A stretch of 64,000 bases of DNA from Aestuariispira ectoiniformans (lineage in GTDB: Bacteria; Pseudomonadota; Alphaproteobacteria; UBA8366; Aestuariispiraceae): the NCBI RefSeq assembly GCF_025136295.1, contig NZ_CP062788.1, positions 2,022,001 through 2,086,000 of the forward strand, written 5' to 3'. This document shows, piece after piece, positions 263 to 56,315 of this stretch (position 1 is the first letter of the stretch; every line of letters begins with the position of its first letter). The position numbers and the translations under genes are program-made. The notes under the pieces were generated by a model. That model was not told the origin of the DNA. It did not search any database and saw only the letters and a program-made list of their open reading frames with translations.

Positions 263-934
263 TCATATCGCTTCCTCTTTGCTGACGGCCGCGCCGATGA
301 AGACGGCGGCGAGAACGGTGAAAATATAGGCCTGGATGATCCCGATCAGGATGCCCAACAAAAGGAAGGGGATCGGCAGGAAAAGCCCGGCCAGGAACAC
401 CACGATGGCAATCATGAATTCATGGCTCATCATGTTGCCGAACAACCGGATCATCAGGGAAAAGGTGCGGGTTACTTCCGACAGGATATTCAATGGCAAC
501 AAGATCGGGTTGGGTTTGATATAGCGGCCCAGATAAGGCAGAAACCCACGAGATCGGATGCCGAAAAAATGGACGGACAGAAAGACGATTGCGGCCAATG
601 CTGCCGGGGTTTCCAGATGGCCGGTTGGCGGTTTGGTGCCGGGCAAAACAGCCGACAGATTGGCAAAGACCAGGAACAGGAAAAGGGTTCCCAGCAGGGG
701 CAGGTAGGGAGACGGGTCGCGGCGGATGATCTCGCCGACCTGTTTCGACTGGGTCGTTGCAACGATTTCAAGGACGGTCTGTAACGGCCCGGCATTAATC
801 TTCGGGCGGCGCAGCCCGATCCAGCAGATTATCGTCAGCACGGCCATGATCGCCCACGTGGTGAGGACGGCGCGGCTGATCGGGACCGGTCCCACCTGAA
901 AAATGATGTCTATGCTGAGCGGATTTTTTTCCAT
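263..934 (-). CDS. atpB: N-ATPase a subunit
   Basis: Membrane stator subunit a (223 aa), which forms the ion half-channels facing the c ring. It is strongly hydrophobic with about five to six membrane segments. The essential Arg lies in the conserved stretch FSLMIRLFGNMMSHE, and the last helix contains IGIIQAYIFTVL. The start chosen is the ATG that overlaps the atpR stop by one base (TGATG); an upstream alternative in the same frame lies inside atpR and is less likely. The order atpD-C-Q-R-B-E is the hallmark of N-ATPase operons rather than of the housekeeping F1Fo operons. Confidence 0.93.
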   Translation of the reverse strand: MEKNPLSIDIIFQVGPVPISRAVLTTWAIMAVLTIICWIGLRRPKINAGPLQTVLEIVATTQSKQVGEIIRRDPSPYLPLLGTLFLFLVFANLSAVLPGTKPPTGHLETPAALAAIVFLSVHFFGIRSRGFLPYLGRYIKPNPILLPLNILSEVTRTFSLMIRLFGNMMSHEFMIAIVVFLAGLFLPIPFLLLGILIGIIQAYIFTVLAAVFIGAAVSKEEAI

Positions 935-1209
935 CAGGCCTGTACCTTCACCCAATGAGTGACCGCGTAACGTCCCGCGAGAAAGCCGATCAGGGCCGCA
1001 AGCAAAGGTAATGCACCTTGCATGGCAATGCCTAGAAATGTCCCCACTGCCAGCGCCAGACGGCCAAAGTGAAGCAGGATCGCGATAGCGGGCCGGTCGC
1101 CGGAGACATGCATCTGCACGACCCGATAGAGGACGGAGAAATAGACCAGACCGGCGACAAGACCGGCCAGGGCATAGATGATGAATTCCGCGATCTGTTC
1201 CATGCTCAT
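934..1209 (-). CDS. atpR: N-ATPase subunit AtpR
   Basis: A 91-residue membrane protein with three predicted transmembrane segments. It matches the small AtpR protein found only in N-type ATPase operons and sits in its canonical place between atpQ and atpB. Its exact role is not established; it has been proposed to interact with the c subunit during assembly. The call rests on position, size and hydrophobicity, because the family has few invariant residues. It overlaps atpQ by 4 bp (ATGA) and touches atpB, indicating translational coupling. Confidence 0.8.
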   Translation of the reverse strand: MSMEQIAEFIIYALAGLVAGLVYFSVLYRVVQMHVSGDRPAIAILLHFGRLALAVGTFLGIAMQGALPLLAALIGFLAGRYAVTHWVKVQA

Positions 1210-1492
1210 GCCTTGTTGATCCTTTTCCAGACGAGATAGGCCCCGACGGTCACCCCCAGGAAAATCAGCGCCCCGCTGAAAAAAATGCCGGTTTCAAATG
1301 TCCGGTCGAGCCAGCGCCCGGCGGCCACACCCAAAAGGGTGGGTACGACGATCAACCATCCGAACGACCCGATCATCGACAGGTTGGCCCACAGAGACCG
1401 CTCACCTTCCTTGTGCCAGGTCTCACGGCGCTTGCGGCGTAGTTGAACGGCGCGCTGCATCTCGTCCTTGTCGTGGTTGGGGGGTGGTCGTG

Positions 1493-1496
<4 letters not shown>
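1206..1496 (-). CDS. atpQ: N-ATPase AtpI-like subunit AtpQ
   Basis: A 96-residue protein with a charged N-terminal tail (RRKRRETWHKEGERS) and two membrane helices. The motif GVAAGRWLDRTF resembles the G-x2-L/AG-x2-LD-x2-F signature of AtpI/AtpQ proteins, which help Mg2+ uptake or c-ring assembly in related systems. The start is the ATG overlapping the atpC stop as ATGA (1493-1496); a longer in-frame reading would begin inside atpC. It is the third gene of the N-ATPase operon. Confidence 0.82.
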
Positions 1497-3465
<1,969 letters not shown>

Positions 3466-18587: not shown

Positions 18588-18897
18588 GCCACTTAAGTTC
18601 CCATGATAAGGCGTTGTGAAGAAAGAGCACTGATTGCCTGAATAATAGCCACTGCTGCGTGGTTAAAAAATGATCACGATCAACTCGTTCCCCTATCGTT
18701 CAGGCGGCCCTCGCGGTCTCATGGTCGCGGGAAACCCCGATCTTTATTCTGTGAGAAATGGAAAGGGCGGCTAAAAAGGCCGCCGGGCTTTTCATGTCCT
18801 CTAACTATCTTCCAATGCCGATGGTGGGCTTCGTTGACTTCTCAAAGGAATATTCTGATAATTAATCTGGTTGCCTGGGGGGGGATGGGTGGCATCA
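18588..18897. other. Divergent intergenic region with dyad and hairpin
   Basis: These 310 bp separate the ferritin-like gene from the four-gene exported operon. They hold the dyad at 18670-18683 and a GC-rich stem-loop (GGCGGC 18766-18771 with GCCGCC 18779-18784). The hairpin is followed on the plus strand by GGGCTTTT, weak evidence for a terminator of a short transcript. No open reading frame with a credible start is seen. Confidence 0.45.
18670..18683. promoter_or_regulatory. FNR/FixK-like dyad upstream of the ferritin-like gene
   Basis: ATGATCACGATCAA matches TTGAT-N4-ATCAA at nine of ten arm positions, 82 bp before the start of the diiron protein gene. Confidence 0.55.
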
Positions 18898-20289
18898 ATG
18901 CCAAAGGACGGATTTTCGCCCGTTAGCGGGAAATTGCTGATGGGAAGTTTCTGCGCGACCCTGCTTTTTACCGCGCCTGCGATTGCTGAGAGCAACGCCG
19001 ACCTCCTGCTGCCGGACCTGCAGCTTGATCAGCCCGCCGCTTTCGATAGCGATGACCTGCTGATTTTTTACGGTGGTGTGGGCTATTTGAGCAAACAGGC
19101 GCAACCCGCGCTGGCGGCAATTATTGAAAAGCGGGTCGGTGTAACCCCACAAAACCCGCTGGCTGTATCCGCTTTTCGGCAAGTCCGGGGACAAATACAC
19201 AATCTGTCCAGCTATCCGGTCATTACCGGTGATGCGTCACTCAAGGAAGCTCTGGCCGGAAGCCTTGGTGTTTCCCCGGGAGAGATCGGGGCCGACACCA
19301 TCGCCATGCAGCTTCGCGACGAGACGAATCTGGTTCTATCCTTCGTCGGTTCCTTTGAGGCCTATGTCCCCTTGGTCAAGGATACATCGCAGGGGCGCTT
19401 TGCCGACAAGCATTACATCGCGTCGGTGACTGCAACCCTGTCCCAGGCGGGAAGTGGGCGCATTGTTCTGGCCGCCCCAGCGCTTTCCGAGCTGGTTGTG
19501 CGTGAGAAATATACCAAGGCCGGTGAAGGAGAGGCGTTGCGGCTGCGGCGTTTTGCGAAGGTATACGAGGATGCAGTGGGCCAAGCCCACGAAAAGCTGC
19601 GTCATCTGAGCGGCAGGTTGGAGGGCGGCTATCCGGAGATGGATATTGTCACACGGGTGTCTATCAAGGACCCGGCAACGCGGGCGCTGTTCGGGTTTCG
19701 GCAGGTCGCTGACAACGCGCCCGGTGACCTATGCAGTGCTATGTCGCAATGTGCCGCGGATGACCAGACCTGTCATGCCATGACTGGCCTGCTGGCGCAG
19801 GGGGTGACAGAGCAACTGACGAAAGCCGGGCATGCAACCCTGCCTCCGGCCAGTTGGGCCGTCTGGGGCGAGAGCGCGCGCGAGCAGTTGAAAATGAATG
19901 CCAGCGTTTTGCGCATCAACGCCGCAGGGGGGCTGAGCCAGTTGGACAATCAACTGGCGCTGGTTCTGGCGCCTGCGCTGGCAGATCGTAAGGTGGATGT
20001 TACCCTGACCGGAATTTTGCAAAAGGACTTGGGCGGAAAGACAAAATACGTTTCCTATCGCGGCTATAAGGCTTACCTGAAGGCGGATTGGTCTGCGGCC
20101 CCCGGCAGTTGTTCCACCGCGATGCGTGAGGCAAAGGGCAGCTATGCCTATGTGAAGGATGCCGAACCGGTCAGCCAGATGCGCAGCGCAAAAGATAAGG
20201 GCACCGCGCCGACTGCGGACTATCAGCGGGGCTACGGTATTATTGCGGTCATGAATGCGATACAGGCGATGGCGAGACATGTTCACTGA
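18898..20289 (+). CDS. Exported protein of unknown function, operon gene 1
   Basis: A 463-residue protein with an N-terminal signal peptide (cleavage probably after TAPAIA). I do not recognise the family. The mature part is mixed alpha/beta, with DDLLIFYGGVGYL near the front and four Cys in the middle part (LCSAMSQCAADDQTC), which suggests disulfides in the periplasm. No membrane helix follows the signal. The ATG at 18898 is chosen because it starts the signal peptide; a TTG 27 bp upstream is possible. It heads a four-gene operon: its stop overlaps the next gene by 11 bp. Confidence 0.7.
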   Translation: MPKDGFSPVSGKLLMGSFCATLLFTAPAIAESNADLLLPDLQLDQPAAFDSDDLLIFYGGVGYLSKQAQPALAAIIEKRVGVTPQNPLAVSAFRQVRGQIHNLSSYPVITGDASLKEALAGSLGVSPGEIGADTIAMQLRDETNLVLSFVGSFEAYVPLVKDTSQGRFADKHYIASVTATLSQAGSGRIVLAAPALSELVVREKYTKAGEGEALRLRRFAKVYEDAVGQAHEKLRHLSGRLEGGYPEMDIVTRVSIKDPATRALFGFRQVADNAPGDLCSAMSQCAADDQTCHAMTGLLAQGVTEQLTKAGHATLPPASWAVWGESAREQLKMNASVLRINAAGGLSQLDNQLALVLAPALADRKVDVTLTGILQKDLGGKTKYVSYRGYKAYLKADWSAAPGSCSTAMREAKGSYAYVKDAEPVSQMRSAKDKGTAPTADYQRGYGIIAVMNAIQAMARHVH

Positions 20290-21532
20290 GGTAATCAAAT
20301 CCGGCGGCAAAGTCGCATCTGTTCTTTTTGCAGCATGCCTGTGGGCAGTTGCTGCGGACGCCGCTGTCGTGCCAATTGTCGCAACCGGTCTGGCCGATAA
20401 CCGGGGGAATGATCAGCACTGCTATCAGGAAGCCGCACAGGATGCTGTGGCTCAGGCGCTGCGTCAGGCTATGTCGGGCATGACCGGGCGGGCACAGGCA
20501 GAAAGCGCCATTCCGACATTGCTGGCCGATCGAACGGTGCTCAAGTCCATCAAGCTGCGGAAGAAAAGCATGAATGCTTTGGGGCAATGTGAAGTGTCCC
20601 TTCGTGCGGTTATCGACCAAAGCCGACTGCAAGAGGTTGTGGAGGGCAAACTGGCGGCGTCGATCCAGGTTCATGATCGCCAACTGAGCCCGATCGGGGC
20701 GGTTATGCGTTTCCTTGTGGATGGCAAAGTCGCCGAAGATGCCGGTTTTGATACCAAGGAATCGTTAACGGCTCTGGGACAGGCGCTGCGCAAATACAAT
20801 GTGGAACTGGTCAGCCTGGACCCGGTTGCAACGATCTTTGCCCGTCAGGAAATCCCGCAGTGGCAGGCGGTCACCGGTGACGTGCAAAGTGATGGTGCCG
20901 TGACCGGTGATTCCGCGCAGACAGCGCAATATGTACGTGAAGCAGTGCATCAGGCCTTGCAAATGTCCCTGAACGCGTTGGATCAGGCGGAACTGCAAAG
21001 CTTTGACCTGCTGCTCACCGGGCAGTCCGATGTGCGCTATATCGGTCGCGATCCGCAGGGGCCTGGACATGTGGCACAGGTTTCAAGCTATCTGGAACTG
21101 GTCGCGGTGAATGGTATGGGGACCGTTGCGACCACAACCAATACCGGCCTGCAGAAAGGTCCGACCAGAGAGGCAGCCATTCGCAAGGCGATGATCTACA
21201 GCCTTGAGGGCAATGCAACCGCGCTGGCGGCGCAAATCCGTAAAGCCGCTGCAAAGATGCAGGCCGAAGGGCAGATTTATAATGTTGTTGTGACCAATCT
21301 TACCAGCAACCGTAAGCAATTGAGACCTCTGATAAAGGGATTGCAGGTTGGTGGCGCCGTTTTGAAAAAGGGGCGCAGCGACGGGGATGATGTTTCCAAA
21401 TTCAATATCGCTTACCGGGGGGATCTGGCCGGGTTGGAGGATTTGCTCGGTACGGTGCTGGATAGGTTGGCGGCGGATTATCCATCCGTCGACTATAAGA
21501 TTAATGGAAACCTGATACAGGTTACGTTCTAG
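20279..21532 (+). CDS. Exported protein of unknown function, operon gene 2
   Basis: A 417-residue protein with signal peptide (FAACLWAVAADA). The early segment DQHCYQEAAQDAVAQALRQA, cited by AAQDAVAQALRQ, has the alternating Ala pattern seen at the start of LPP20/FlgT-type periplasmic domains. The C-terminal 100 residues (NVVVTNLTSNRKQLRPLIK onward) look like a small alpha/beta repeat of the same general class. Both resemblances are weak. The start is the ATG that overlaps the gene 1 stop by 11 bp. With gene 4 it may share a C-terminal fold. Confidence 0.68.
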   Translation: MFTEVIKSGGKVASVLFAACLWAVAADAAVVPIVATGLADNRGNDQHCYQEAAQDAVAQALRQAMSGMTGRAQAESAIPTLLADRTVLKSIKLRKKSMNALGQCEVSLRAVIDQSRLQEVVEGKLAASIQVHDRQLSPIGAVMRFLVDGKVAEDAGFDTKESLTALGQALRKYNVELVSLDPVATIFARQEIPQWQAVTGDVQSDGAVTGDSAQTAQYVREAVHQALQMSLNALDQAELQSFDLLLTGQSDVRYIGRDPQGPGHVAQVSSYLELVAVNGMGTVATTTNTGLQKGPTREAAIRKAMIYSLEGNATALAAQIRKAAAKMQAEGQIYNVVVTNLTSNRKQLRPLIKGLQVGGAVLKKGRSDGDDVSKFNIAYRGDLAGLEDLLGTVLDRLAADYPSVDYKINGNLIQVTF

Positions 21533-21547
21533 GATGGGGCGGCAGGG

Positions 21548-22303
21548 ATGAAATATAAGGCAAAGATTGCAGTTTTACTGGGGGCTGTGCTGTTGACCAG
21601 CAGTTGTGTCAGCGGCAGGGCTCTGGTTGAGGAAACCCTGAATACAATGTCGGGCCGTGGAACTTTCGCCAATAAGTCCGCGGTGCAGACAGTTGTGGTG
21701 ACCACAGGCCTGGTAAAGTCAGCGACGGCTGAATACCTGGACGGGCTGAAGGTTGCCTATTCTGCCCTGGACCTCAAGGAGGAGGGGGTGGAAAGAAAGC
21801 TGGAAGATCTGCGCCTTGTCGTTGCGGAGTCGGATGGCTTTTCGGGGGCGGCCAATGATTCCGCCCGCGCACTGGAAGAAAGCGACCAATATGCGCGGCG
21901 GCTGCAGGCGAAAATCCGCAACACCCGTATTGATGAATTGACGCCACAGGCCCGGGCCCAACTGGTCAAGGCAGGGGAGAAGTTCCAACTGGCCAATTAC
22001 GTTCAGACCAAAGCCACGGCTGGTGCGGTTAGTCTGGCCTATCGTCTTGCCCAGACATCGGTGCGAGAGAAGACGCTGGCCGCCCTTTCGAGGGGCAATG
22101 TGTATGAAAACATGAATACACTTACCTCCATTCCCAGCACGGTTATGGCCTGGTCCACGAATATCAGCCGGTCGGAAGAAATTGTCGCTGTGATGCGCGA
22201 AACCAAGGATTTTGAAGAGGCTCTGGCGGCAAGGCGGGAGGTGATCAACAGACGGGGATCGCAAATTGTGGCCGTTCAGATGGACAATGATGATCCGTTT
22301 TAA
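21548..22303 (+). CDS. Lipoprotein of unknown function, operon gene 3
   Basis: A 251-residue lipoprotein with lipobox LTSSC after a short hydrophobic signal. The mature part is almost wholly helical and charged (residues about 60-235), with no family I recognise. It lies 15 bp after gene 2 and has a GGCAGGG site. It could act as the outer-membrane anchor of the complex formed by its operon partners, which is inference only. Confidence 0.7.
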   Translation: MKYKAKIAVLLGAVLLTSSCVSGRALVEETLNTMSGRGTFANKSAVQTVVVTTGLVKSATAEYLDGLKVAYSALDLKEEGVERKLEDLRLVVAESDGFSGAANDSARALEESDQYARRLQAKIRNTRIDELTPQARAQLVKAGEKFQLANYVQTKATAGAVSLAYRLAQTSVREKTLAALSRGNVYENMNTLTSIPSTVMAWSTNISRSEEIVAVMRETKDFEEALAARREVINRRGSQIVAVQMDNDDPF

Positions 22304-22373
22304 GGGCTGCTTGCCAAAAAAGGCCCTTTGCCTTTCATTGCGCTGGTAGACGTGGTTTTTCAGGGGGAATTGG

Positions 22374-23348
22374 ATGTTTGCCTTTCGTAATCTTGTCGTT
22401 GCTGCAGGACTTATGGCTGCAGGGCTCGCGGGTGGTTTTAGCAGCCCTGCCATGGCCCGGGCCGGTACCGGAATCCCGGTGATCGTCATGGGCGAGGATT
22501 CCGATCCGGCCAGTGTCAAACGGTCCAGCGATATTTATAAACGTGTTCTTGCCGCCCTCAAGGGCAGCATGCAGCGCTATGATTTTCGGATGGTGGATGA
22601 AGAATTTCTGGCGGCGGACCTGGGATGGAAAGTTCGCGATCGACGTCCGAAAGTCGAATTGGTGCAGGCGGCCAAACTGGCAAATAGTGCAGGGCGCGGA
22701 AATCTTCGTTCGCGGGCAATGGTCCTGTTCCGCATTCATGCAACGATCAAGAACCTCGGTTTCTCAAACAAGATTACGACCCGCGTGGATGGCGAGATTT
22801 ATGACATTGCCAGCAATACCTTCCTCGACACCTTCGAGTTGGCCCCGGCGGCCTATCCGGCACCTGCGGATTGCAATTCCGTCTGCGTGAGCGAGGTCGT
22901 CGGCAAGAAGGCCCGCACCATTGCCATGAATCTGGGTGATGTGCTGGGTAAGAAACTGGCCTATCTGACCGAAGGCGGCCAGCAGCAGGCGTCTGCAGGT
23001 GGGGCCTCGAAATATGATCAGGGGCTGGTTACCGGCTATACTCTGGAAATGAATGCATTCGACACGCGTGAGGCCCTGACGATCGTCAGTGTCATGGCTG
23101 AGGAGTTTCCCGGCTACGTCTCCCATGATCTGCTGGAGAAAGGCTCTGTGGTTCGCAAATACGAATATTTGAGCCGTGCCCCGGCGGTCAAATTGGACGA
23201 ATGGCTGACGATCCTGTTGACGGATATGGGGTTTGATATGGATCGCCAGATCAGTTTGCAGGTCAGTAACGGCAGGATCATTCTGGATAAGATCGTCAAT
23301 ACTGACGAGCGGCCCCGATCAGAGGATGAAACTGCGCGCTATAACTGA
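22374..23348 (+). CDS. Exported protein of unknown function, operon gene 4
   Basis: A 324-residue protein with signal peptide ending near PAMARA. The mature part begins IPVIVMGEDSDP, and then has the alternation of helices and strands (RSRAMVLFRIHATIKN, KITTRVDGEIYD) seen in CsgG/FlgO/TolB-N-like periplasmic domains, a weak resemblance. Two Cys (DCNSVC) are close together. The C-terminal 100 residues (FDTREALTIVSVMAEEFPGY) echo the end of gene 2. It ends 26 bp before a strong terminator. Confidence 0.68.
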   Translation: MFAFRNLVVAAGLMAAGLAGGFSSPAMARAGTGIPVIVMGEDSDPASVKRSSDIYKRVLAALKGSMQRYDFRMVDEEFLAADLGWKVRDRRPKVELVQAAKLANSAGRGNLRSRAMVLFRIHATIKNLGFSNKITTRVDGEIYDIASNTFLDTFELAPAAYPAPADCNSVCVSEVVGKKARTIAMNLGDVLGKKLAYLTEGGQQQASAGGASKYDQGLVTGYTLEMNAFDTREALTIVSVMAEEFPGYVSHDLLEKGSVVRKYEYLSRAPAVKLDEWLTILLTDMGFDMDRQISLQVSNGRIILDKIVNTDERPRSEDETARYN

Positions 23349-23373
23349 TCGGACAGGATATATGTCTGTATCG

Positions 23374-23410
23374 CGGTCGGGACGATTTTTGTCCCGGCCG
23401 TTTGTTTTTT
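23374..23410 (+). terminator. Rho-independent terminator of the exported operon
   Basis: A 10-bp stem with one mismatch or G-U pair (CGGTCGGGAC / GTCCCGGCCG), a 7-base loop and the tract TTTGTTTTTT. It lies 26 bp after operon gene 4. Confidence 0.85.
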
Positions 23411-23485
23411 AAGGGGCTTGGCAGGCAGGGAGCCGGATGTATTGTGGGCGCTGTTATGTGGAGCTGCCAATAGGGAGAAACTGTC

Positions 23486-47584: not shown

Positions 47585-48355
47585 TTATACCTTCAATGCC
47601 CGCGCGATTTCATCGACGTCATCGGCGGCTTCGGCATTAGGCGATCGCGTTAGCAACGGGATTTGTGACCGGATGGCATCCCGCACCTTGCGGTCCTGGC
47701 GCACAACGCCCAAAAGCGGCGGTTCGAATTTGAGAAAGTTCCGACAAACCTTGGCCAGGGTTTCGTACGTCCGGCGGCCTGCCTCTTTGCTTTCAGCGGC
47801 ATTAACGACAATCTGGACCTCACTGTCCGGATGCTGTTTGCGGGTAAGCTTGATGAAGGCATAGGCATCGGTCAGGGAGGTTGGTTCATCCGTTACGATC
47901 AGAAGGCTTTGACTGGCCTGTGCCGCCAGTGTCTGCACGGTGCTGTCTACCCCGGCGCCCAGGTCCATGATCACGGCATCATAGTCTTTTGACAGGTCGG
48001 ACAGTTGCGTCATCAGTCGCATCAGGCGCGGCGTGGGCAGGCGTGCGAGCGAACCTGTGCCGGAACGGCCTGCAATAATATCAAACCGGCCATCCTTGTA
48101 GGATGTAACCGCCTGATGCAGGGTGATCTGGCCGGTCAGAACGGCCCCAAGATCACGGTCCGGCATCAGGCCGAGTTGGATATCCACGTTAGCCAGTCCC
48201 AGGTCGCCGTCAAAAAGCAGGACCTTCTTGCCACTCATCGCCAGCGCCTGGGCCAGGGTGATGGCAAACCAGGTCTTGCCGACGCCGCCTTTACCGGAGG
48301 CGACGGCCACAAATTTCCGTCCGTCGATCTTGTAAGTCTGTTCAGTAGCAGCCAT
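47585..48355 (-). CDS. flhG: MinD-type ATPase FlhG (FleN)
   Basis: A 256-residue ParA/MinD-family ATPase that limits flagellar number and place. The deviant Walker A is SGKGGVGKTW, with DGDLGLANVD as the switch, and IMDLGAGVD as Walker B. It follows flhF by 5 bp. It works with FlhF to set the position of the flagellum, and often restrains the flagellar master regulator. Confidence 0.9.
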   Translation of the reverse strand: MAATEQTYKIDGRKFVAVASGKGGVGKTWFAITLAQALAMSGKKVLLFDGDLGLANVDIQLGLMPDRDLGAVLTGQITLHQAVTSYKDGRFDIIAGRSGTGSLARLPTPRLMRLMTQLSDLSKDYDAVIMDLGAGVDSTVQTLAAQASQSLLIVTDEPTSLTDAYAFIKLTRKQHPDSEVQIVVNAAESKEAGRRTYETLAKVCRNFLKFEPPLLGVVRQDRKVRDAIRSQIPLLTRSPNAEAADDVDEIARALKV

Positions 48356-48360
48356 AGGGA

Positions 48361-49347
48361 TTATGCCTCGCTATCATCGCTCAGGGATAGAGGCTTCGCC
48401 TCCTCCAGGGTATTGCCCAAGGCAATCAAACGTTGTGCCAGATGGTCGGATGTCGTTGCTGTCAGCCCATTGGCGATATTCGGGGTCGCGCTGTGATCGC
48501 AAAAAGCCAGTTCTGCTCCATAGGCTACAGACAGTAACGACCCAAGCCGGTGTGTGATATCCAGCCCCGTCGACAAGAGGTGTTTCGGACCCACAGGGCG
48601 AAAGGCTCTGGCGATATCTATGGTTTCGTCTGCGTCACGACCCGCATTGAGGACCAGAACGGGGGCGGCACGACTGGCTTCGGCTATCTCAACCAGATAG
48701 GCAAGTTCTTCCAGATTGAAAGGGTTGGTGCCCGGCGTATCAATGAAAACGGCTTCCTGGTCGTGACATCGGCTCAGCGCGTCGCGCAGGGCTTCCGCCG
48801 TTGGCGCTTCAAACATTGGCACGCCCAGCCGTTCGGCATAGGCGGCCAATTGATCGGTTGCTGTCAGCCGCACCGGGTCGGCTGCGATCAGAACGGCTTT
48901 TTTCCCGTCCAGGATTTGCCGGGCGGCCAGCTTGGCACAGGTTACGGTTTTTCCCGTGCCCGGCGGGCCGATCAGCATGATCGGACGTTTGCCCTTGCCC
49001 AAGGGAAGCGGGGAGAAGGAAAACAACTGGTCCAGCGCACGCTTCAACGCCTCCTCGACCGTTTCATCGGGACCGCCGCTTGCGGTTTCCACGATCCTGT
49101 CACCCAGCCAGCGAGGGACACCATGCCGGTCGAGGTAAATGGTAAGCTGTTCCTGCTTTTCCAGCGGGAGGTCACCCCCCTGCTCGGGCAGGTCGTGCTC
49201 CTCTTCATCGATGGCGGCGGTGACGCGGGCACCGGCGGCGCCATCTGCCTCCTGTGTGGCGACAATAATGGCATCCGGGCCCAGTTGCTCACGGACCTGG
49301 GCCATTGCCTCGGACAGGGTTTGTCCATGAAAGGATTTCAGCCGCAT
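48361..49347 (-). CDS. flhF: SRP-type GTPase FlhF
   Basis: A 328-residue SRP-family GTPase that places flagella at the pole. The N-terminal basic region (residues 1-95) includes MRLKSFHGQTLSEAMAQV. GTPase motifs are [17 protein letters not shown] (G1), the DPVRLTATDQL segment and FIDTPGTNPF (G3, D-T-x-G). Length is a little shorter than some FlhF. It is translationally close to flhG. Confidence 0.9.
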   Translation of the reverse strand: MRLKSFHGQTLSEAMAQVREQLGPDAIIVATQEADGAAGARVTAAIDEEEHDLPEQGGDLPLEKQEQLTIYLDRHGVPRWLGDRIVETASGGPDETVEEALKRALDQLFSFSPLPLGKGKRPIMLIGPPGTGKTVTCAKLAARQILDGKKAVLIAADPVRLTATDQLAAYAERLGVPMFEAPTAEALRDALSRCHDQEAVFIDTPGTNPFNLEELAYLVEIAEASRAAPVLVLNAGRDADETIDIARAFRPVGPKHLLSTGLDITHRLGSLLSVAYGAELAFCDHSATPNIANGLTATTSDHLAQRLIALGNTLEEAKPLSLSDDSEA

Positions 49348-49390
49348 GAACGTGATCCCTTGTTATGTGTCTCCATTCGCGGCGTCACGG

Positions 49391-51511
49391 TCAGACCTGC
49401 TCCACGGTTTTGATCCGTGCCTTCGGGTGAATTTCATTTTGTGACATGACCACCGTCACCGGACGGAAACGTTCAATCACAGACCGGACGAATGGGCGGA
49501 TGGTGGGGCCGACCAGCAGGACCGGCGTTTCTCCGGCCATGGCCTGACGTTCGAAAACTGCCCGGACTTTCGTGATAAAGTCCTGAAGCTGGCTGGGAGC
49601 CATAGCAAGCTGGCGTTCCTCGCCATCTCCGACAATTGATTCCATGAAGGACTGCTCCCACTCCGGCGTCAGCGTGACCAGCGGAATGATGCCCTCGTCG
49701 TTGGTATTGGCATCTGATAGCTGCCGGGCAAGTCGGCCACGCACATGCTCTGTAATCTGCGTCAGGTTCCGGGTATAGCCGGTGGCTTCGGCCATGCCTT
49801 CCAGGATCGTCGGCAGGTCACGGATAGAGACACGTTCTGACAACAGGTTTTGCAGAACACGCTGCAAAGAACCCAGGCCAACCTGATTGGGGACGATATC
49901 TTCCACCAGCTTCTGTTGGGATTGTGGCAACTCATCCAGCAATTTCTGGCATTCCGCATAGGACAGAAGCTCGGACATATTGTCCTTGATGATTTCTGTC
50001 AGATGAGTGGTGATGATCGTGGACGGGTCAACAACGGTATAACCGCGGAAGGTCGCCTCTTCACGTTGCGATTCCTGAATCCAGACGGCTGGCAGCCCGA
50101 AAGTCGGCTCGACGGTGGCTTCGCCGGGCAGGGTGATCTGTTCCCCGCGCGGGTCCATCACCATAAGCATATTGGGCCGCAAATCCCCGCGGCCTGCCTC
50201 GATTTCCTTGATACGAAGGACGTAGGTATTGGCGGGAAGCTGCAGGTTGTCCTGAATGCGAACGGCAGGCATGACAAAGCCCATGTCGCCTGCAAGCTGT
50301 CGGCGGAGTGCCTTGATCTGGTCCGTCAGGCGATGTTCCTGGCCCGCATTCAACAGCGGTAGCAGACCATAGCCAAGCTCCAGACGGACAAGGTCTATCT
50401 GCAAAGCCGATGAAATCGGCTCTTCCGTCGGGGCCTCGGGGCCTTCTTCTTCTGCCTGTGCCGCCAATTGCGACGCCAGTTCCTCAGCCGCCGTCCTGCG
50501 GCGGATATAGTAAGCGCCGCCACCGCAACCGGCCGCCATCAGCAGGAACGGCCAGGCTGGCAGGTTCGGGATGACGGCCATCAGTGTTAACAGGCCAGCC
50601 GCAACGATCAGGGCGCCGGGATAGCCGCTCAACTGGCCGAAGACGGCCTTGTCGGTGGCGCCAGGAACACCGGCTTTGGTGACCAGAAGGCCCGCCCCCG
50701 TTGAGACGACAAGGGCCGGAATCTGACTGACCAGACCATCCCCGACAGTCAGCAGGGTATAGTTCTGGGCCGCTTCAGAAATGGGCATGCCGCGTTGTGC
50801 CACGCCGATGATAATGCCGCCGATGACGTTGATGAAAGTGATCATCAGGCCCGCGACAGCATCGCCGCGAACGAATTTGGAGGCACCGTCCATGGCCCCG
50901 TAGAAGGAGCTTTCCAGGTTGAGGTCTGCGCGTCTGGTCCGGGCCTCGTCCTCGGTGATCAGGCCCGATGACATATCTGCGTCGATCGCCATCTGCTTAC
51001 CGGGCATGGCGTCCAGGGTGAAACGGGCGGCGACTTCTGCGATACGGCCCGCACCTTTTGTAATCACGACGAAGTTGATGATGACCAGAATGCCGAAGAC
51101 GATGATACCGATGACATAGTTACCGGCAACGATGAAGGTGCCGAAGGCCTCAATCACACGACCGGCTGCCTCCGTCCCCGTATGCCCCTGCGACAGGATC
51201 AGCCGGGTGGAGGCTACGTTCAGCGCCAGTCGCAACATTGTCGCAATCAGCAGGATCGTCGGGAAAGACGTCAGTTCCAGCGGCGATTGGACGAAAATAA
51301 CCGTCATCAGGATGATGACCGAGAATGTGATGGAGATGGACAGCGAGAAGTCCAACAGCCAGGTCGGCATGGGGATCAGCAGAACTGCCATGATCAGCAC
51401 AATGCCGATCGGCAGCAGAAAATCCTTCTGCTTCAACAGACCGCGCAGGCGGTCCATCGGGCTCGTGCCCGTACCTGCATCTGTTGTCTGGGCTGGTCCT
51501 GTATCTGCCAT
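49391..51511 (-). CDS. flhA: Flagellar export gate protein FlhA
   Basis: A 706-residue membrane protein of the flagellar type III export gate. Eight predicted helices lie in about residues 30-330, with LTSFPTILLIATMLRLALNV, cited by FPTILLIATMLRL, and DAMPGKQMAIDADMSSGLI, cited by MPGKQMAIDADM, the two best-known conserved sites. The cytoplasmic C-terminal part (about 360-706) binds chaperones and FliJ. Length is standard. Confidence 0.95.
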   Translation of the reverse strand: MADTGPAQTTDAGTGTSPMDRLRGLLKQKDFLLPIGIVLIMAVLLIPMPTWLLDFSLSISITFSVIILMTVIFVQSPLELTSFPTILLIATMLRLALNVASTRLILSQGHTGTEAAGRVIEAFGTFIVAGNYVIGIIVFGILVIINFVVITKGAGRIAEVAARFTLDAMPGKQMAIDADMSSGLITEDEARTRRADLNLESSFYGAMDGASKFVRGDAVAGLMITFINVIGGIIIGVAQRGMPISEAAQNYTLLTVGDGLVSQIPALVVSTGAGLLVTKAGVPGATDKAVFGQLSGYPGALIVAAGLLTLMAVIPNLPAWPFLLMAAGCGGGAYYIRRRTAAEELASQLAAQAEEEGPEAPTEEPISSALQIDLVRLELGYGLLPLLNAGQEHRLTDQIKALRRQLAGDMGFVMPAVRIQDNLQLPANTYVLRIKEIEAGRGDLRPNMLMVMDPRGEQITLPGEATVEPTFGLPAVWIQESQREEATFRGYTVVDPSTIITTHLTEIIKDNMSELLSYAECQKLLDELPQSQQKLVEDIVPNQVGLGSLQRVLQNLLSERVSIRDLPTILEGMAEATGYTRNLTQITEHVRGRLARQLSDANTNDEGIIPLVTLTPEWEQSFMESIVGDGEERQLAMAPSQLQDFITKVRAVFERQAMAGETPVLLVGPTIRPFVRSVIERFRPVTVVMSQNEIHPKARIKTVEQV

Positions 51512-51569
51512 TCAGGTCCGCTTTCCTACTGTACTTGGTAACGACGGCACGCGACGTTTGAGGTAAAGG

Positions 51570-52973
51570 TCACTGTCCGGCTCCGGGTTCCGGAATGGCG
51601 AAACCGTCGTCCGAATATTGTTTCAGCTTGTTGCGCAGGGTCCGGATCGAAATACCGAGAATATTGGCGGCATGTGTCCGGTTGCCGAAACAATGGTCGA
51701 GCGTGTCAATAATGAGCTGCCGTTCCACATCGGCCACGGTGCGGCCAACGAAGTTCTGATCATCTTCCTCACCGGCATCATCCACATGACCTACGCTGCC
51801 GGCATCGGCTGTTGCCGGTTGCGGAACAGAGGTCTCGGCAGGGGGGGCGGACTGGCTGCTGGCCGTCGTCGGCGCACCGGTCAGCAGGATTGCCTCCTCA
51901 CCGATTTCGTCGCCATGGGCCAACAGGATCGCACGATGCATCGTGTTCTCCAGTTCACGGACGTTCCCAGGCCAGGGATGCGTCTCCAGTTTGGCAATGG
52001 CCGCCTTGGTCAGGGGGCGCTCCGCCACGCCATTCAATTCTGCATATTTCTTGGTAAAATGATCAGCCAGAAGGGCAATATCCTGCGGACGCTCCTTGAG
52101 CGACGGTAATTGGATGTTGACCACATTCAGACGGAAATACAGGTCTTCGCGGAACTTACCGTCCTTGATCGCCTCGTCCATATTCCGGTTGGAGGTGGCG
52201 AGGATGCGGACATTGACCTTCACCGGCTTGCTGCCGCCGACCCGATCGATTTCCCGTTCCTGAATGGCGCGCAGCAGTTTGGCCTGCAGGCGCAGGTCCA
52301 TCTCGCTGATCTCGTCCAGCAGCAACGTGCCTTCATTGGCCTCTTCGAACTTACCGATACGGCGCGCGATGGCACCGGAGAAGGCACCTTTCTCATGGCC
52401 GAAAAGTTCCGATTCCAGAAGGTTTTCGGGGATCGCCGCACAGTTCACCGCGACAAAGGGCCCTGTTGCCCGTCGGCTCTTCATATGAAGATAACGGGCC
52501 ATGACCTCCTTACCGGTCCCGGATTCCCCGGTGATAAGGACGGAGGCATCGGATGGTGCGATCTGGTCCGCCAGGCTGAGAACCTGCTTTGTCGCCGGAT
52601 CGCGATGGATAATGGCATTGTCTTCCTGGACAACTGCTTCCAGAACCGCAGCAATCAGGTCCGGGTCCGGCGGCAGCGGGATATATTCCTGCGCGCCTTC
52701 CTTGATGGCTTTGGCGGCTGCGTCGGCGGAGGTTCCTTCGATCCCGCAGGCCACAACAGGCACGTGAATCCGTTCCTGTTCCAACTGGGCGACCAATGTG
52801 CCGATATTCATCCTGACATCAATCATGATCAGGTCTGCCCCCTGGCCGGAGCGCAGGTTGGTCAGGGCGGCATCCAGGCTGTCAGCACTGGCGACCTTTG
52901 CCCCTCGTTTGAGCGCAATTTGCCCGGCCGCGGTCATATGGCCTTCCAGTGTTCCGATGATCAACAGTCGCAT
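51570..52973 (-). CDS. flbD: Sigma-54-dependent flagellar regulator FlbD
   Basis: A 467-residue NtrC-family activator. The first 115 residues are receiver-like: IMIDVRM has an Asp at the usual phosphorylation site, but the acidic pair expected near residue 10 is missing (LLIIGTLEGH), so phosphorylation is doubtful. The AAA+ part has GESGTGKE, GAFSGA (GAFTGA in most) and LLLDEISEMD. A Fis-type helix-turn-helix ends the protein. It should activate middle and late flagellar promoters with sigma-54. Confidence 0.9.
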   Translation of the reverse strand: MRLLIIGTLEGHMTAAGQIALKRGAKVASADSLDAALTNLRSGQGADLIMIDVRMNIGTLVAQLEQERIHVPVVACGIEGTSADAAAKAIKEGAQEYIPLPPDPDLIAAVLEAVVQEDNAIIHRDPATKQVLSLADQIAPSDASVLITGESGTGKEVMARYLHMKSRRATGPFVAVNCAAIPENLLESELFGHEKGAFSGAIARRIGKFEEANEGTLLLDEISEMDLRLQAKLLRAIQEREIDRVGGSKPVKVNVRILATSNRNMDEAIKDGKFREDLYFRLNVVNIQLPSLKERPQDIALLADHFTKKYAELNGVAERPLTKAAIAKLETHPWPGNVRELENTMHRAILLAHGDEIGEEAILLTGAPTTASSQSAPPAETSVPQPATADAGSVGHVDDAGEEDDQNFVGRTVADVERQLIIDTLDHCFGNRTHAANILGISIRTLRNKLKQYSDDGFAIPEPGAGQ

Positions 52974-53017
52974 TTCTTATTCCCTTAAGACGATTAACCG
53001 AACCCTTCAGGTCTCGA

Positions 53018-53851
53018 TTAACCGAAGTAATCCACCCGGAAGGCAGGTGGTAAGACGGTATTCAACAACATTTCCAGGCGGCGGGGATTTTCCTGTCGCC
53101 CGATGGAAGAGGAGGACATCACGTAGAGATGGTTCAACAGCATCTCTTCGGAGGCCATGCGCTCCATTTTTGATGCCAATGGTGTGAACACTACATTGGC
53201 AAGAATGGCACCGTAGAAGGTCGTCAGCAGCGCAACAGCCATGCTGGGGCCGATTGTGGACGGATCTTCCAGGTTGCCCAGCATCTGCACAAGGCCGACA
53301 AGCGTCCCGATTAATCCCATTGCCGGGGCAATATCGGCGGCCTTGCGCAAAACACTGACGGATCGGCTGTGCCGCTCTGCGGTGGCCTGCACTTCACGCT
53401 GTAGAATTCGTTCGATTTCGTCACCGGTTGCGCCATCCACGGCCATGTTCAGCCCCTGTGCCAGCATCGGCTGTTTTTCCACGGCTGTAATGTAGTTCTG
53501 AAGGGACAGCACCCCGCGATAGCGGGCAATTTGTGCCAGCTGCAGCAGTTGCAGGGCGGCCTGCTGAGGGTTCTTCTGGCTGCGGAACACGGTGCGCCCG
53601 ACAGTCGATGCTGCCGTCATCATATCCCCCAGCGAAAAACAGGCGGTTGTAACGCCAAAGGTGCCGCCAATCACAATCAGCACGGAGGGCATGTCGAAAA
53701 ATGCTCCCGGCGATCCGCCAAGAAAAATGGCCGTCATGATAAGCAGGGCCGCGCCGCTGATACCCAGAACCGTCGCCAAGTCGAACGAATAGCGCGTCCT
53801 TGGCTGCGTCAGCGGTTTTTGTTCTTCGCCGGTTTCGGTATCTGTTGCCAT
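53018..53851 (-). CDS. motA: Flagellar stator protein MotA, PomA-like
   Basis: A 277-residue stator subunit with four membrane helices. GGTFGVTTACFSLGD and DIAPAMGLIGTLVGLVQMLGNL, cited by APAMGLIGTLVGLVQML, and AVALLTTFYGAILANVVF follow PomA of Na+-driven motors more closely than the H+-type MotA of enteric bacteria. That is a reading of short motifs only. No motB/pomB lies in the window. The start is ATG 53851 behind GGAG; the longer in-frame reading has no site. Confidence 0.85.
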   Translation of the reverse strand: MATDTETGEEQKPLTQPRTRYSFDLATVLGISGAALLIMTAIFLGGSPGAFFDMPSVLIVIGGTFGVTTACFSLGDMMTAASTVGRTVFRSQKNPQQAALQLLQLAQIARYRGVLSLQNYITAVEKQPMLAQGLNMAVDGATGDEIERILQREVQATAERHSRSVSVLRKAADIAPAMGLIGTLVGLVQMLGNLEDPSTIGPSMAVALLTTFYGAILANVVFTPLASKMERMASEEMLLNHLYVMSSSSIGRQENPRRLEMLLNTVLPPAFRVDYFG

Positions 53852-53918
53852 TCCCCTGCTCCGTTGCCTCGCTATGGCCGTGGGAAATATCTCCCTCTGG
53901 CCCATTGCCCCCAAACCG

Positions 53919-54314
53919 TTAGGTCGTTGATTTATCCGACTTGATGATTTCCGTCATCGTCACGCCCAGCTTGTCGTCCACGACGACGACCTCGCCGCGT
54001 GCCACCAGGCGGTTGTTGACATAGATATCAATAGCCTCGCCGACCTTCCGGTCCAGCTCGACAACTGCGCCGCGTCCGAGCTTCAAAAGCTGGCTGACCT
54101 GCATGTGGGATTTGCCCAATACCGCCGCCACCTGGACCGGAATTTCATAGACGGCCTCAAGGTCTCGTGCGCCGGTGGGAACGACCAGTTCGGCTGCGCG
54201 CGGGTCCAGGGGCTCTCCGCCAATGTCACCGGTTTCCAGTTCCTCAAGGGAGAAGTTTTCGTCCTGGGCGTCTTCGCCTTCAGTCACTTCGCCGTTTTCG
54301 TCGTCTTGTGCCAT
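53919..54314 (-). CDS. fliN: Flagellar motor switch protein FliN
   Basis: A 131-residue C-ring protein. The last 80 residues form the SpoA domain: YEIPVQVAAVLGKSHMQVSQLLKLGRGAVVEL, cited by LGKSHMQVSQLLKLGRGAVV, and GEVVVVDDKLGVTMTEII. The N-terminal 45 residues are acidic and probably flexible. It lies 15 bp after the fliH gene. Confidence 0.93.
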   Translation of the reverse strand: MAQDDENGEVTEGEDAQDENFSLEELETGDIGGEPLDPRAAELVVPTGARDLEAVYEIPVQVAAVLGKSHMQVSQLLKLGRGAVVELDRKVGEAIDIYVNNRLVARGEVVVVDDKLGVTMTEIIKSDKSTT

Positions 54315-54329
54315 CGACGTCTCCTAAAC

Positions 54330-55142
54330 TCACTCTTGTTCCGGTGCCTGAAGATCATCGTCTTCCGGCGACGGCTCCAATTCATTGTCCTGTGCCCCGG
54401 CTGTCGGCAAGGTGTTTGCCTGCATATCCGGGGCAGGGGGGGCGGCCAATTCGCCAGCATGGGCGTCACCCTGCGACAGCGCGTGGCCGACAGCCTCGTC
54501 TATATACCGCCAGGTCTTTTCAGTATTGCGTTCTGCGCCGCCCTGGCCCCAGTCAATCTGGACATCGGCCGGGCCCAGCGATGCATCGGCGAGGACGACA
54601 AGTTCGCCACGAAAGCCGGATTCCACCTTGGCCTGTTCAAGACGGGGCTTCATGGCTTCCTGAATGTCGGGGCTCACCTTGATTGTTACACGACCTGTAT
54701 CTTCAAGAGGTTCCAGGCAGGTTTTGACCAGGGAAGCGATTTCATCTGCGCCGTGTTTTTCCGTGTAATAAGGCAGCAGTTTGGCAATCATCTCGCGTGT
54801 GATTTTTGCCAGTTCCGCAGCGGTCACCTCATTTGCCAGGGCCTGCCGGTCGTGCAGCACCGCCAACTGGCCTGTGATCGTGTGAAGAGCCGCCACAACG
54901 TGGTTTTCAAGTTCCTGCTTCGCCTGGGACAGGCCTGCGGCATGTCCCTCTTCGAAGGCAATTGCCTTTGCCGCCTGCAATTCTTCTTCGCTGAATGTGG
55001 GCGGTGGGGGAGGCAGTTCCTCCTCCAGTGCGGCTTCTGCCTGGCGCTGCAGTTCTGCTTCGGTTTCCTTATCCTTACGACGCTGTGTCGCCGCGGAATC
55101 CGTGTCGAAGGATCGCTCGAACTTGAAGGGTTTATATTTCAT
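54330..55142 (-). CDS. fliH: Flagellar assembly protein FliH-like
   Basis: A 270-residue cytoplasmic protein between fliG and fliN. The N-terminal part is charged, with KYKPFKFERSFD as the first segment, and is followed by a long Glu/Ala/Gln-rich coiled coil (about 30-125). The middle GHAAGLSQAKQELE and LLPYYTEKHGADEI resemble FliH/YscL. It would regulate the FliI ATPase. Starts at 55142, 55157 and 55166 are all possible. Confidence 0.75.
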   Translation of the reverse strand: MKYKPFKFERSFDTDSAATQRRKDKETEAELQRQAEAALEEELPPPPPTFSEEELQAAKAIAFEEGHAAGLSQAKQELENHVVAALHTITGQLAVLHDRQALANEVTAAELAKITREMIAKLLPYYTEKHGADEIASLVKTCLEPLEDTGRVTIKVSPDIQEAMKPRLEQAKVESGFRGELVVLADASLGPADVQIDWGQGGAERNTEKTWRYIDEAVGHALSQGDAHAGELAAPPAPDMQANTLPTAGAQDNELEPSPEDDDLQAPEQE

Positions 55143-55210
55143 GGCGCCAGTTGCCATTTCGGTCACATTTTTCCAATCGTTTTTGGGTCACGCAGATACG
55201 TAGTCCCAGC

Positions 55211-56227
55211 CTAGTAAATCAGTTCGTCTTCGGCGCTGCCCTCGGAGATGACAATTTCACCCTTGGCGGCGAGGTCCTTGGCCTGGTTGACCATTTCCAT
55301 CTGCGCGTCGTCCACATCACGCAAACGAACAGGGCCCAGTGCCGCCATGTCTTCCTTGAGGATTTTCGCCGCACGTTCGGACATATTGCCGAAGAACAGT
55401 TCCTTGATTTGTTCCGACGCCCCTTTGAGCGCAATGCCCAATTTGTCTTTGTCGACGGCCCGCAACAGTGTCTGGACGCCGCTGGGGTCCAGTTTCTGGA
55501 GGTCTTCGAAGGTAAACATCAGGGCCTTGATCCGTTCGGCGGAATCCCTGTTTCGTTCCTCCAGAAGGGTCATGAAGCGGTTTTCTGTGTTGCGGTCCAG
55601 ACTGTTGAAGATTTCGGCCATCATTTCATGCGCATCGCGGCGGGCCGTGCGCGCAAGGTTGGTCATGAACTCATTGCGCAACGTCCGTTCAACATCGTCC
55701 AGAACCTCTTTTTGAACGGCCTCCATACGAAGCATTCGCATGATCACTTCCATGGCGAAGCTTTCAGGCAGCGAGGCCAGAACGCGGGACGCATGATCAC
55801 CTTTGATCTTCGACAGCACGACAGCCACGGTCTGCGGGTATTCGTTCTTGAGATAGTTGGCCAGAACCACCTCGTTCACATTGGCCAGCTTGTCCCACAT
55901 GGTACGCCCGGCGGGACCACGGATTTCCTCCATGATCTGCCCGACGCGATCCGGGTCGAGCACCTTGTTGAGCAGGCGTTCTGTGCTTTCATAGGAGCCG
56001 ACCAGACTGCCGGTGGAAGAGAGCTGTTCAGCGAATTCCACGAACAGGCGTTCGACAAGGTTGGAGCTGATCGTGCCAAGGTTCGCCATGGTCTGGGACA
56101 GTTCACGGATCTCTTCATCATCCATGACACTGAACAGCTTGATGGCGTTTTCCTCGCCCATCGCGAGTACCATGATGGCGGCCTTTTCCGGGCCGGTCAG
56201 GCTGCGAAAATCCTCCCTAACACGCAT
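55211..56227 (-). CDS. fliG: Flagellar motor switch protein FliG
   Basis: A 338-residue rotor protein that binds FliF by its N-terminal domain and the stator by its C-terminal domain. [19 protein letters not shown] opens it, and [18 protein letters not shown], followed by ALKGA, marks the torque-generating helix. Length is typical. It is followed by fliH and lies after fliF, in the standard order. Confidence 0.94.
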
Positions 56228-56315
56228 GGATCACTCACAACTACCTAGAATTGAACGACAAAACAAAACTTTACATATCCCAATAGGGCCCGATTCCTGC
56301 AATCCAGGCAAGCTG

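Follow-up and report, generated by a model that had tools for sequence, protein, structure and literature searches.

What might a bacterium build from four exported proteins encoded side by side, none of which carries a family name? The question is raised by positions 18898-23410 of a 64,000-nucleotide stretch of Aestuariispira ectoiniformans DNA (contig NZ_CP062788.1, positions 2,022,001 to 2,086,000; hereafter "the window"), which lies within a 4.36-Mb genome consisting of one contig. A preliminary description, made from the letters of the stretch, had presented the locus as a four-gene exported operon, and we confirm that it is one. The answer that we favor, tentatively and at somewhat less than an even chance, is that the operon makes a lineage-specific periplasmic collar or scaffold anchored in the outer membrane. 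This reading draws on the predicted fold of the fourth protein, a possible resemblance of the second to FlgT, a likely lipoprotein in third place, and the genes beside which relatives of the fourth are found.

Gene layout, coding evidence and export signals

The four co-directional genes (P0001, P0002, P0003, and P0004; here genes 1 to 4) span 18898-23348 of the (+) strand. Gene 1 (18898-20289, 463 amino acids [aa]) and gene 2 (20279-21532, 417 aa) overlap by 11 bases; gene 3 (21548-22303, 251 aa) follows after a gap of 15 bases and gene 4 (22374-23348, 324 aa) after one of 70 bases. All are real genes: the sense frame has the best codon usage among the six frames in each of the four, and the probability of an equally long open run from the given start, computed at the base composition of the window, ranges from 8e-5 (gene 3) to 3e-8 (gene 1). 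Ahead of gene 1 stands a sigma70-like promoter match, TTGACT-17-GATAAT (18834-18862, + strand; 10 of 12 matches), and promoter-like sites in the operon region number 6 against 2.7 expected. Gene 4 is followed by an intrinsic terminator (23373-23411, + strand), with a 13-pair stem (23373-23401) and then a T tail; terminator-like matches number 6 versus 5.6 in shuffles, and that of the operon is the longest, so it is unusual by quality alone. The boundaries first proposed, with four overlapping or abutting genes and a single strong terminator, are thus borne out by the open reading frame (ORF) coordinates, the codon usage, and this stem with its T run.

All four proteins appear to be exported. 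A crude signal-peptide rule was passed by every one of them but by only 5 of 50 other ORFs picked mechanically from the window. Residues 16-20 of gene 3 read LTSSC, a lipobox-like sequence; the end of this segment (TSSC, 21596-21607, + strand) makes Cys20 the candidate lipidation site, and gene 3 is likely a lipoprotein. The copy of gene 4 in the window has no Cys in its signal region, although several of its family relatives do have a lipobox-like one. These signals agree with the division into one lipoprotein and three soluble exported proteins that had been read at the outset.

Searches of Pfam, NCBIfam, and PHROGs gave no usable match for any of the four proteins, nor did PADLOC for genes 1, 2, and 4, the three searched there; weak matches to curated families (such as Germane, SymE, SepF, and TrbC) were far under cut-offs, in a Pfam listing that went to E 10 with HMMER filters dropping most matches above 0.1. 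Sequence searches of the PDB with genes 1-4 singly gave nothing useful, the two matches of gene 2 standing at E 1.5 and 1.9, and literature searches, which mostly did not reach subscription papers, returned no paper on the operon or on the gene 4 family. Searches of 97 other kin genomes (98 with the genome itself) brought up nothing at E<=0.001 for genes 1, 2, and 3; these genomes include all 13 other members of the taxonomic family, in which a second search was made with gene 2. Among 398 genomes sampled from the phylum (own included), the genome of the window was the sole match of genes 1 and 2; gene 3 weakly matched one other genome there (33% over residues 117-238, E 1.6e-4; E 7.6e-5 in another search), inside a 1380-codon frame, and we take this for a chance likeness of helical sequence. 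A plasmid search with genes 1, 2, and 3 returned no match, and a phmmer scan of 29 loci of the gene 4 family (at least four places being represented twice) returned none to genes 1-3 at E<=1. We find no convincing relative of genes 1-3 in the 97 kin genomes or in the 397 other genomes of the phylum. The preliminary description had counted a lack of synteny in any relative as a point against itself, and in the strict sense that is what was found, as no other searched genome was found to hold genes 1-3.

The gene 4 family, its predicted fold and its other loci

The statement that none of the four proteins belongs to a nameable family holds for curated families, but gene 4 is, as judged from its sequence, a member of a real though unnamed family with clear relatives, the nearest other copy being similar over its full length at E 4.4e-142. 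The family occurs in 12 of the 98 kin genomes (own included) at 18 places, three of them in the genome of the window, and at 16 loci of the GTDB species collection, nearly all labelled alpha- or gammaproteobacteria (the exceptions, by their labels as deposited, are one Binatia and one Mesoflavibacter record). The closest named relative is that of Aestuariispira insulae, at 67% over the best segment. The plasmid search gave one match, a "hypothetical protein" on the Methylobacterium plasmid pMaq22A_2p, and a phage search, made with gene 4 alone, gave none. Two cysteines, C167-x3-C171 (22872-22886, + strand), are invariant in all 27 rows of the family alignment. In a tree of these 27 rows, whose bootstrap had not settled, gene 4 joins copy a of its own genome (G000:C1:3208125, 1.16 Mb from the window copy) with support of 90/88, and the two lie in a 100/100 clade with the A. 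insulae copy. Because it groups with copy a and has a branch length of 0.39 versus 0.10, gene 4 looks, with moderate support, like a fast-evolving duplicate of copy a made in this lineage. This suggests that a ring-type gene was copied and recruited beside three orphan genes within one lineage.

The structure model of gene 4, built from an 18-row alignment, reaches a predicted local distance difference test score (pLDDT) of 79 and a predicted template modeling score of 0.54, with two confident domains. The N-domain (residues 31-203; 22464-22982, + strand) has, by the model, Foldseek, and VIA, the predicted fold of the FlgT middle domain, HpaA, CsgG, PelC, and TolB-N, and the C-domain (residues 220-306; 23031-23291, + strand) has a b-a-b-b-a-b-b order (b, strand; a, helix) at pLDDT 85-93 over most of its length. 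In Foldseek, 53 of 1103 matches stand at E<=0.001, and the top PDB fold matches include HpaA, an LPHT-ring chain, CsgG (E 2e-5), FlgT, GNA1162, and PelC; VIA gives Z 8.6-10.5 in the 50 listed rows, with FlgT at Z 10.5 (root mean square deviation 3.6, 146 residues). CsgG and PelC work as rings, and PDB entry titles read "PelC dodecamer" and "LPHT ring." The predicted N-domain is nevertheless a superfold common to many families, and neither a family assignment nor diagnostic of FlgT, because the VIA list also contains tRNA-synthetase anticodon-binding domains, scattered among the other matches at comparable Z. Profiles of gene 4 searched against the PDB reached E 0.16 and 0.27 at best, to designed and ribosomal proteins.

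The other loci of the family indicate the kind of system that such a protein may serve. In four loci of three genomes (L045, L051, L054, and L076), the first two on two contigs of one metagenome-assembled genome (MAG; G488), a ~412-aa gene, a ~405-aa gene, and a gene 4 homologue stand in an order parallel to that of the operon. In each of the four, the genes ahead of the gene 4 homologue include a long exported-looking ORF of 443-516 aa (CC), coiled-coil-like as read from its sequence, after which come a lipoprotein-like ORF of 82-92 aa, a protein of 410-412 aa, and one of 401-414 aa; downstream, L051, L054, and L076 continue with a trypsin-like protease, a small lipoprotein, a single-transmembrane (TM) protein, an SLT lytic transglycosylase, and further unnamed genes (Pfam annotation was run for L051). 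The ~405-aa proteins of L045 and L051 are 91% identical and may represent two strains in one bin. This ~405-aa family occurs in 3 of the 287 genomes around G489 (G489 included), plus two marginal matches. Its profile, run against the 98 kin genomes of the window, comes up in 10 at E<=1 (best 0.0022), over short stretches in every case and, so far as we can judge, convincingly in none.

The genome of the window itself holds two more copies of gene 4 among exported and envelope genes (L004, G000:C1:3205000-3222000). Copy a has as neighbors relatives of the TM, SLT, and c2 genes of the MAG operon (c2 being one of our labels for unnamed genes), and downstream of copy b lie OmpA and a protein whose DUF4384 match is sub-threshold. 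A short membrane protein in the same locus matches PADLOC ZorA2 models at E 1.7e-4 and 7.1e-4 (two members tested), and Pfam MotA_ExbB at E 8.7 for one member, with no such match for the other. On the mobilizable plasmid pMaq22A_2p of Methylobacterium aquaticum (L077, 2627-12849), the gene 4 homologue belongs to a co-directional run with a caspase, a serine protease, OmpA, and c2-c9-c3 relatives, in which all but the caspase, the protease, and OmpA are annotated as hypothetical. Caspase domains were also confirmed within ~8 kb of family members in L040, L043, and L047. Taken as annotated, these loci suggest an envelope system linked to proteases and peptidoglycan. Two further observations concern them: three gene 4 homologues lie in tandem in a Defluviicoccus MAG (L050, 9965-13097), and the c3 protein (L076, 15114-16616; L051, 16217-17641) matches PADLOC CARF_LON at E 0.006 in the L076 protein, the one match behind our impression that it has a Lon-type domain with a changed catalytic motif and a TM segment.

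Gene 2 and its possible likeness to FlgT

The model of gene 2, from a five-row alignment, is poor (mean pLDDT 43). Among its 831 Foldseek matches, only FlgT (3w1e, E 1.6e-5, 333 columns) and the LPHT-ring chain 8z5n_0 (E 1.6e-4), which we take to be FlgT too, reach E<=0.001, and we tentatively read a FlgT-like layout into the protein. At this low confidence, its N-domain (residues 30-121; 20366-20641, + strand) would have a b-a-b-b-a order like that of LPP20, FlgP, and FlgT-N; its middle region (residues 142-329; 20702-21265, + strand) may be CsgG/DUF330/FlgT-M-like; and its C-domain (residues 334-416; 21278-21526, + strand), with a b-a-b-a-b-b order, resembles the gene 4 C-domain in the model. 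When a profile of gene 2 and four MAG proteins was searched against the PDB, the top match was the 171-aa "Lipoprotein, putative" of 9HMF (E 0.021), presumably FlgP, aligned to the gene 2 N-domain and followed by an unrelated endonuclease at E 0.064; the same lipoprotein was found neither by the four MAG proteins alone nor by gene 2 alone. The corresponding paper describes 9HMF as the C. jejuni periplasmic scaffold and gives FlgP, Lpp20, and FlgT an SHS2-like fold in common (PMC12222027).

Of the features reminiscent of FlgT, LPP20, and CsgG that the preliminary description had seen in genes 2 and 4, a CsgG/FlgT-type domain was thus recovered in gene 4 by the model, Foldseek, and VIA, whereas for gene 2 the likeness to FlgT comes from Foldseek on a low-confidence model and that to LPP20/FlgP from the mixed profile. 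The C-terminal fold that the two proteins had been thought to share finds an echo in the similar strand and helix order of the two models but not in sequence, as 674 of 1000 shuffles scored as high in the comparison of the two C-domains.

Competing readings and known systems

In the favored reading, gene 4, with its FlgT-middle/CsgG-like domain and a second domain of alpha/beta type, would be a ring-type subunit. Gene 2 would act as a larger scaffold laid out like FlgT, the lipoprotein of gene 3 would tether the assembly to the outer membrane, and gene 1 would be a further soluble part. Gene 4 would have been copied from the family member that has genes for an SLT lytic transglycosylase and for a single-TM protein as neighbors; once next to genes 1-3, it would have diverged fast. 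The machine served would most likely be the envelope system in which the family otherwise occurs. Several points weigh against this. Nothing in the analysis shows oligomers or contacts, and gene 1 has no fold information. The mean pLDDT of the gene 2 model is only 43, and because the MAG proteins were part of its alignment, the match to FlgT is not free of their influence; VIA on the same model puts DUF330, CsgG, and RAD52 on top (Z 8.1, when common arrangements also reach Z near 8), and FlgT, unlike in Foldseek, is not among the 50 listed rows, though this is an absence only. If gene 4 is the recent duplicate that the tree makes it, this argues against the whole set as an old inherited module. 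Further, in the genome of the window the ~405-aa profile finds its best place elsewhere than in gene 2 (E 0.43), and neither this profile nor the ~412-aa one lists gene 2 or gene 1 at E<=5.

The last points bear also on the idea that the operon descends from the head module of the long MAG operon and has since been displaced. In this view, which we consider unlikely, genes 1-3 would be true but unrecognizable orthologues of genes in that module, which comprises a long exported protein, a small lipoprotein, the ~412-aa and ~405-aa genes, and family 4. Order and sizes are similar, an overlap like that of genes 1 and 2 is seen between the ~412- and ~405-aa genes of L076 (4 bases), and the SLT, TM, and c2 genes of the MAG operon have relatives elsewhere in the genome of the window. 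Few shuffles reach the local scores of gene 2 with the ~405-aa family (3 of 200) and of gene 3 with CC (1 of 200), and gene 3 is second for CC by hhalign (score 21.1) and, except for one MAG frame, the best non-member found by the CC profile in hmmsearch (E 1.3). However, 76 of 200 shuffles score as high as gene 1 does with the ~412-aa family, gene 3 also does well with a mismatched family, the ~405-aa one (8 of 200), and shuffling destroys helical periodicity. When window proteins are ranked by hhalign, gene 2 comes only fourth for the ~405-aa family, gene 1 ranks lower than sixth for the ~412-aa family, and it is gene 1, not gene 3, that comes first for CC; no single hhalign comparison of the genes with the MAG families is significant. 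A loosely built semi-global shuffle test gave nothing for genes 1 and 2, the MAG profiles fail to find these two, and in the tree gene 4 stands apart from the copies of the MAG operon. The check for synteny thus yields a similar gene order in MAGs, but homology of genes 1-3 to their MAG neighbors is not shown.

H-ring and basal-disk proteins are known as flagellar parts, and a flagellar cluster lies in the window at 47585-57971 (- strand). NCBIfam models recognize FlhA, FlbD, FliG, and FliF in it above their cut-offs; it also contains genes like FlhF and MinD/FlhG and one for a stator protein, which among NCBIfam models fits the Na+ type PomA best, at 222.9 bits and so under the cut-off of 341. 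In gammaproteobacteria, according to one paper, H-ring proteins accompany Na+ PomAB motors (PMC6375700). Because of that association and the PomA-like stator in the same window (47.6-58.0 kb), we give some room to an H-ring-like collar of a polar flagellum, with gene 2 as FlgT, gene 4 as FlgO, and gene 3 as FlgP; the predicted fold of gene 4, and weakly that of gene 2, match FlgT. The proposal is decidedly unlikely all the same, as 24 kb and many unrelated genes separate the operon from the cluster, no sigma54-type site precedes it, and genes 1-3 were not found in the 13 other members of the taxonomic family searched; moreover, annotated loci place other gene 4 homologues near proteases, OmpA, and SLT, with no flagellar gene recognized in the part of their neighbors that was annotated. 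The predicted fold of gene 4 has also suggested to us an adhesin or secretion-pore type of system rather than a collar, HpaA and CsgG being among its top matches, but we rate this as highly unlikely: the model resembles FlgT at least as well as it does HpaA and CsgG, the window copy has no Cys in its signal region, and the curated-family search recognized no known secretion partner among the four proteins. Returning to the favored collar, an improbable extension of it takes the gene 4 family as the sign of an envelope-spanning machine not yet described, composed of FlgT/CsgG-type ring proteins, OmpA, a lytic transglycosylase, a MotA/ZorA-like membrane protein, and a trypsin-like protease, with a caspase-like protease in some hosts and a plasmid location in one case; the operon would then be a lineage-specific addition, a collar related to the H-ring but independent of the flagellum.

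The immediate neighbors of the operon are a rubrerythrin/ferritin-like gene and a Crp-like regulator on the opposite strand and, downstream, an O-methyltransferase gene, none with an evident link to it. Two ideas were tried and rejected: horizontal transfer, to which composition gives no support (the GC content of the operon is ordinary for the window), and sigma54 (flagellar) control, for which no site with <=2 mismatches was found upstream (such sites number 33 in the window versus 37 expected). Elsewhere in the window, ATP synthase a and beta genes (263-3387, - strand) resemble the NCBIfam models of alternate F1F0 ATPases but fall short of the cut-offs; the beta subunit also clears the threshold of the general atpD model.

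If FlgT-like scaffolds and CsgG-type subunits do build collars for another envelope machine, this would show an origin of such rings, and it would point to a protease-linked system for which our searches found no paper. Compared with FlgT itself, a Vibrio H-ring protein, gene 2 may have a similar layout, to judge from its poor model, and the gene 4 N-domain has the predicted fold of the middle domain, the gene 4 C-domain lying outside the match; identity to the two is 8-12%. Pfam holds FlgT domain models and a CsgG model, and because no Pfam FlgT match is listed for gene 2 or gene 4, neither is filed as FlgT; nor is there a flgO/flgP-type family match among the four proteins. FlgT is exported without a lipid anchor, and the operon copies appear to be so too. 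To the SHS2-like LPP20/FlgP group, the gene 2 N-domain is possibly alike, through the E 0.021 match of the mixed profile alone, with no Pfam LPP20 match listed for gene 2. The CsgG, GNA1162, PelC, HpaA, and TolB-N group is alike in fold to the predicted gene 4 N-domain; gene 4 has no listed Pfam CsgG match, and its window copy differs from CsgG-type lipoproteins in having no signal-region Cys to be lipidated. To the fold of this group, gene 4 adds a predicted C-terminal alpha/beta domain and the invariant C-x3-C.

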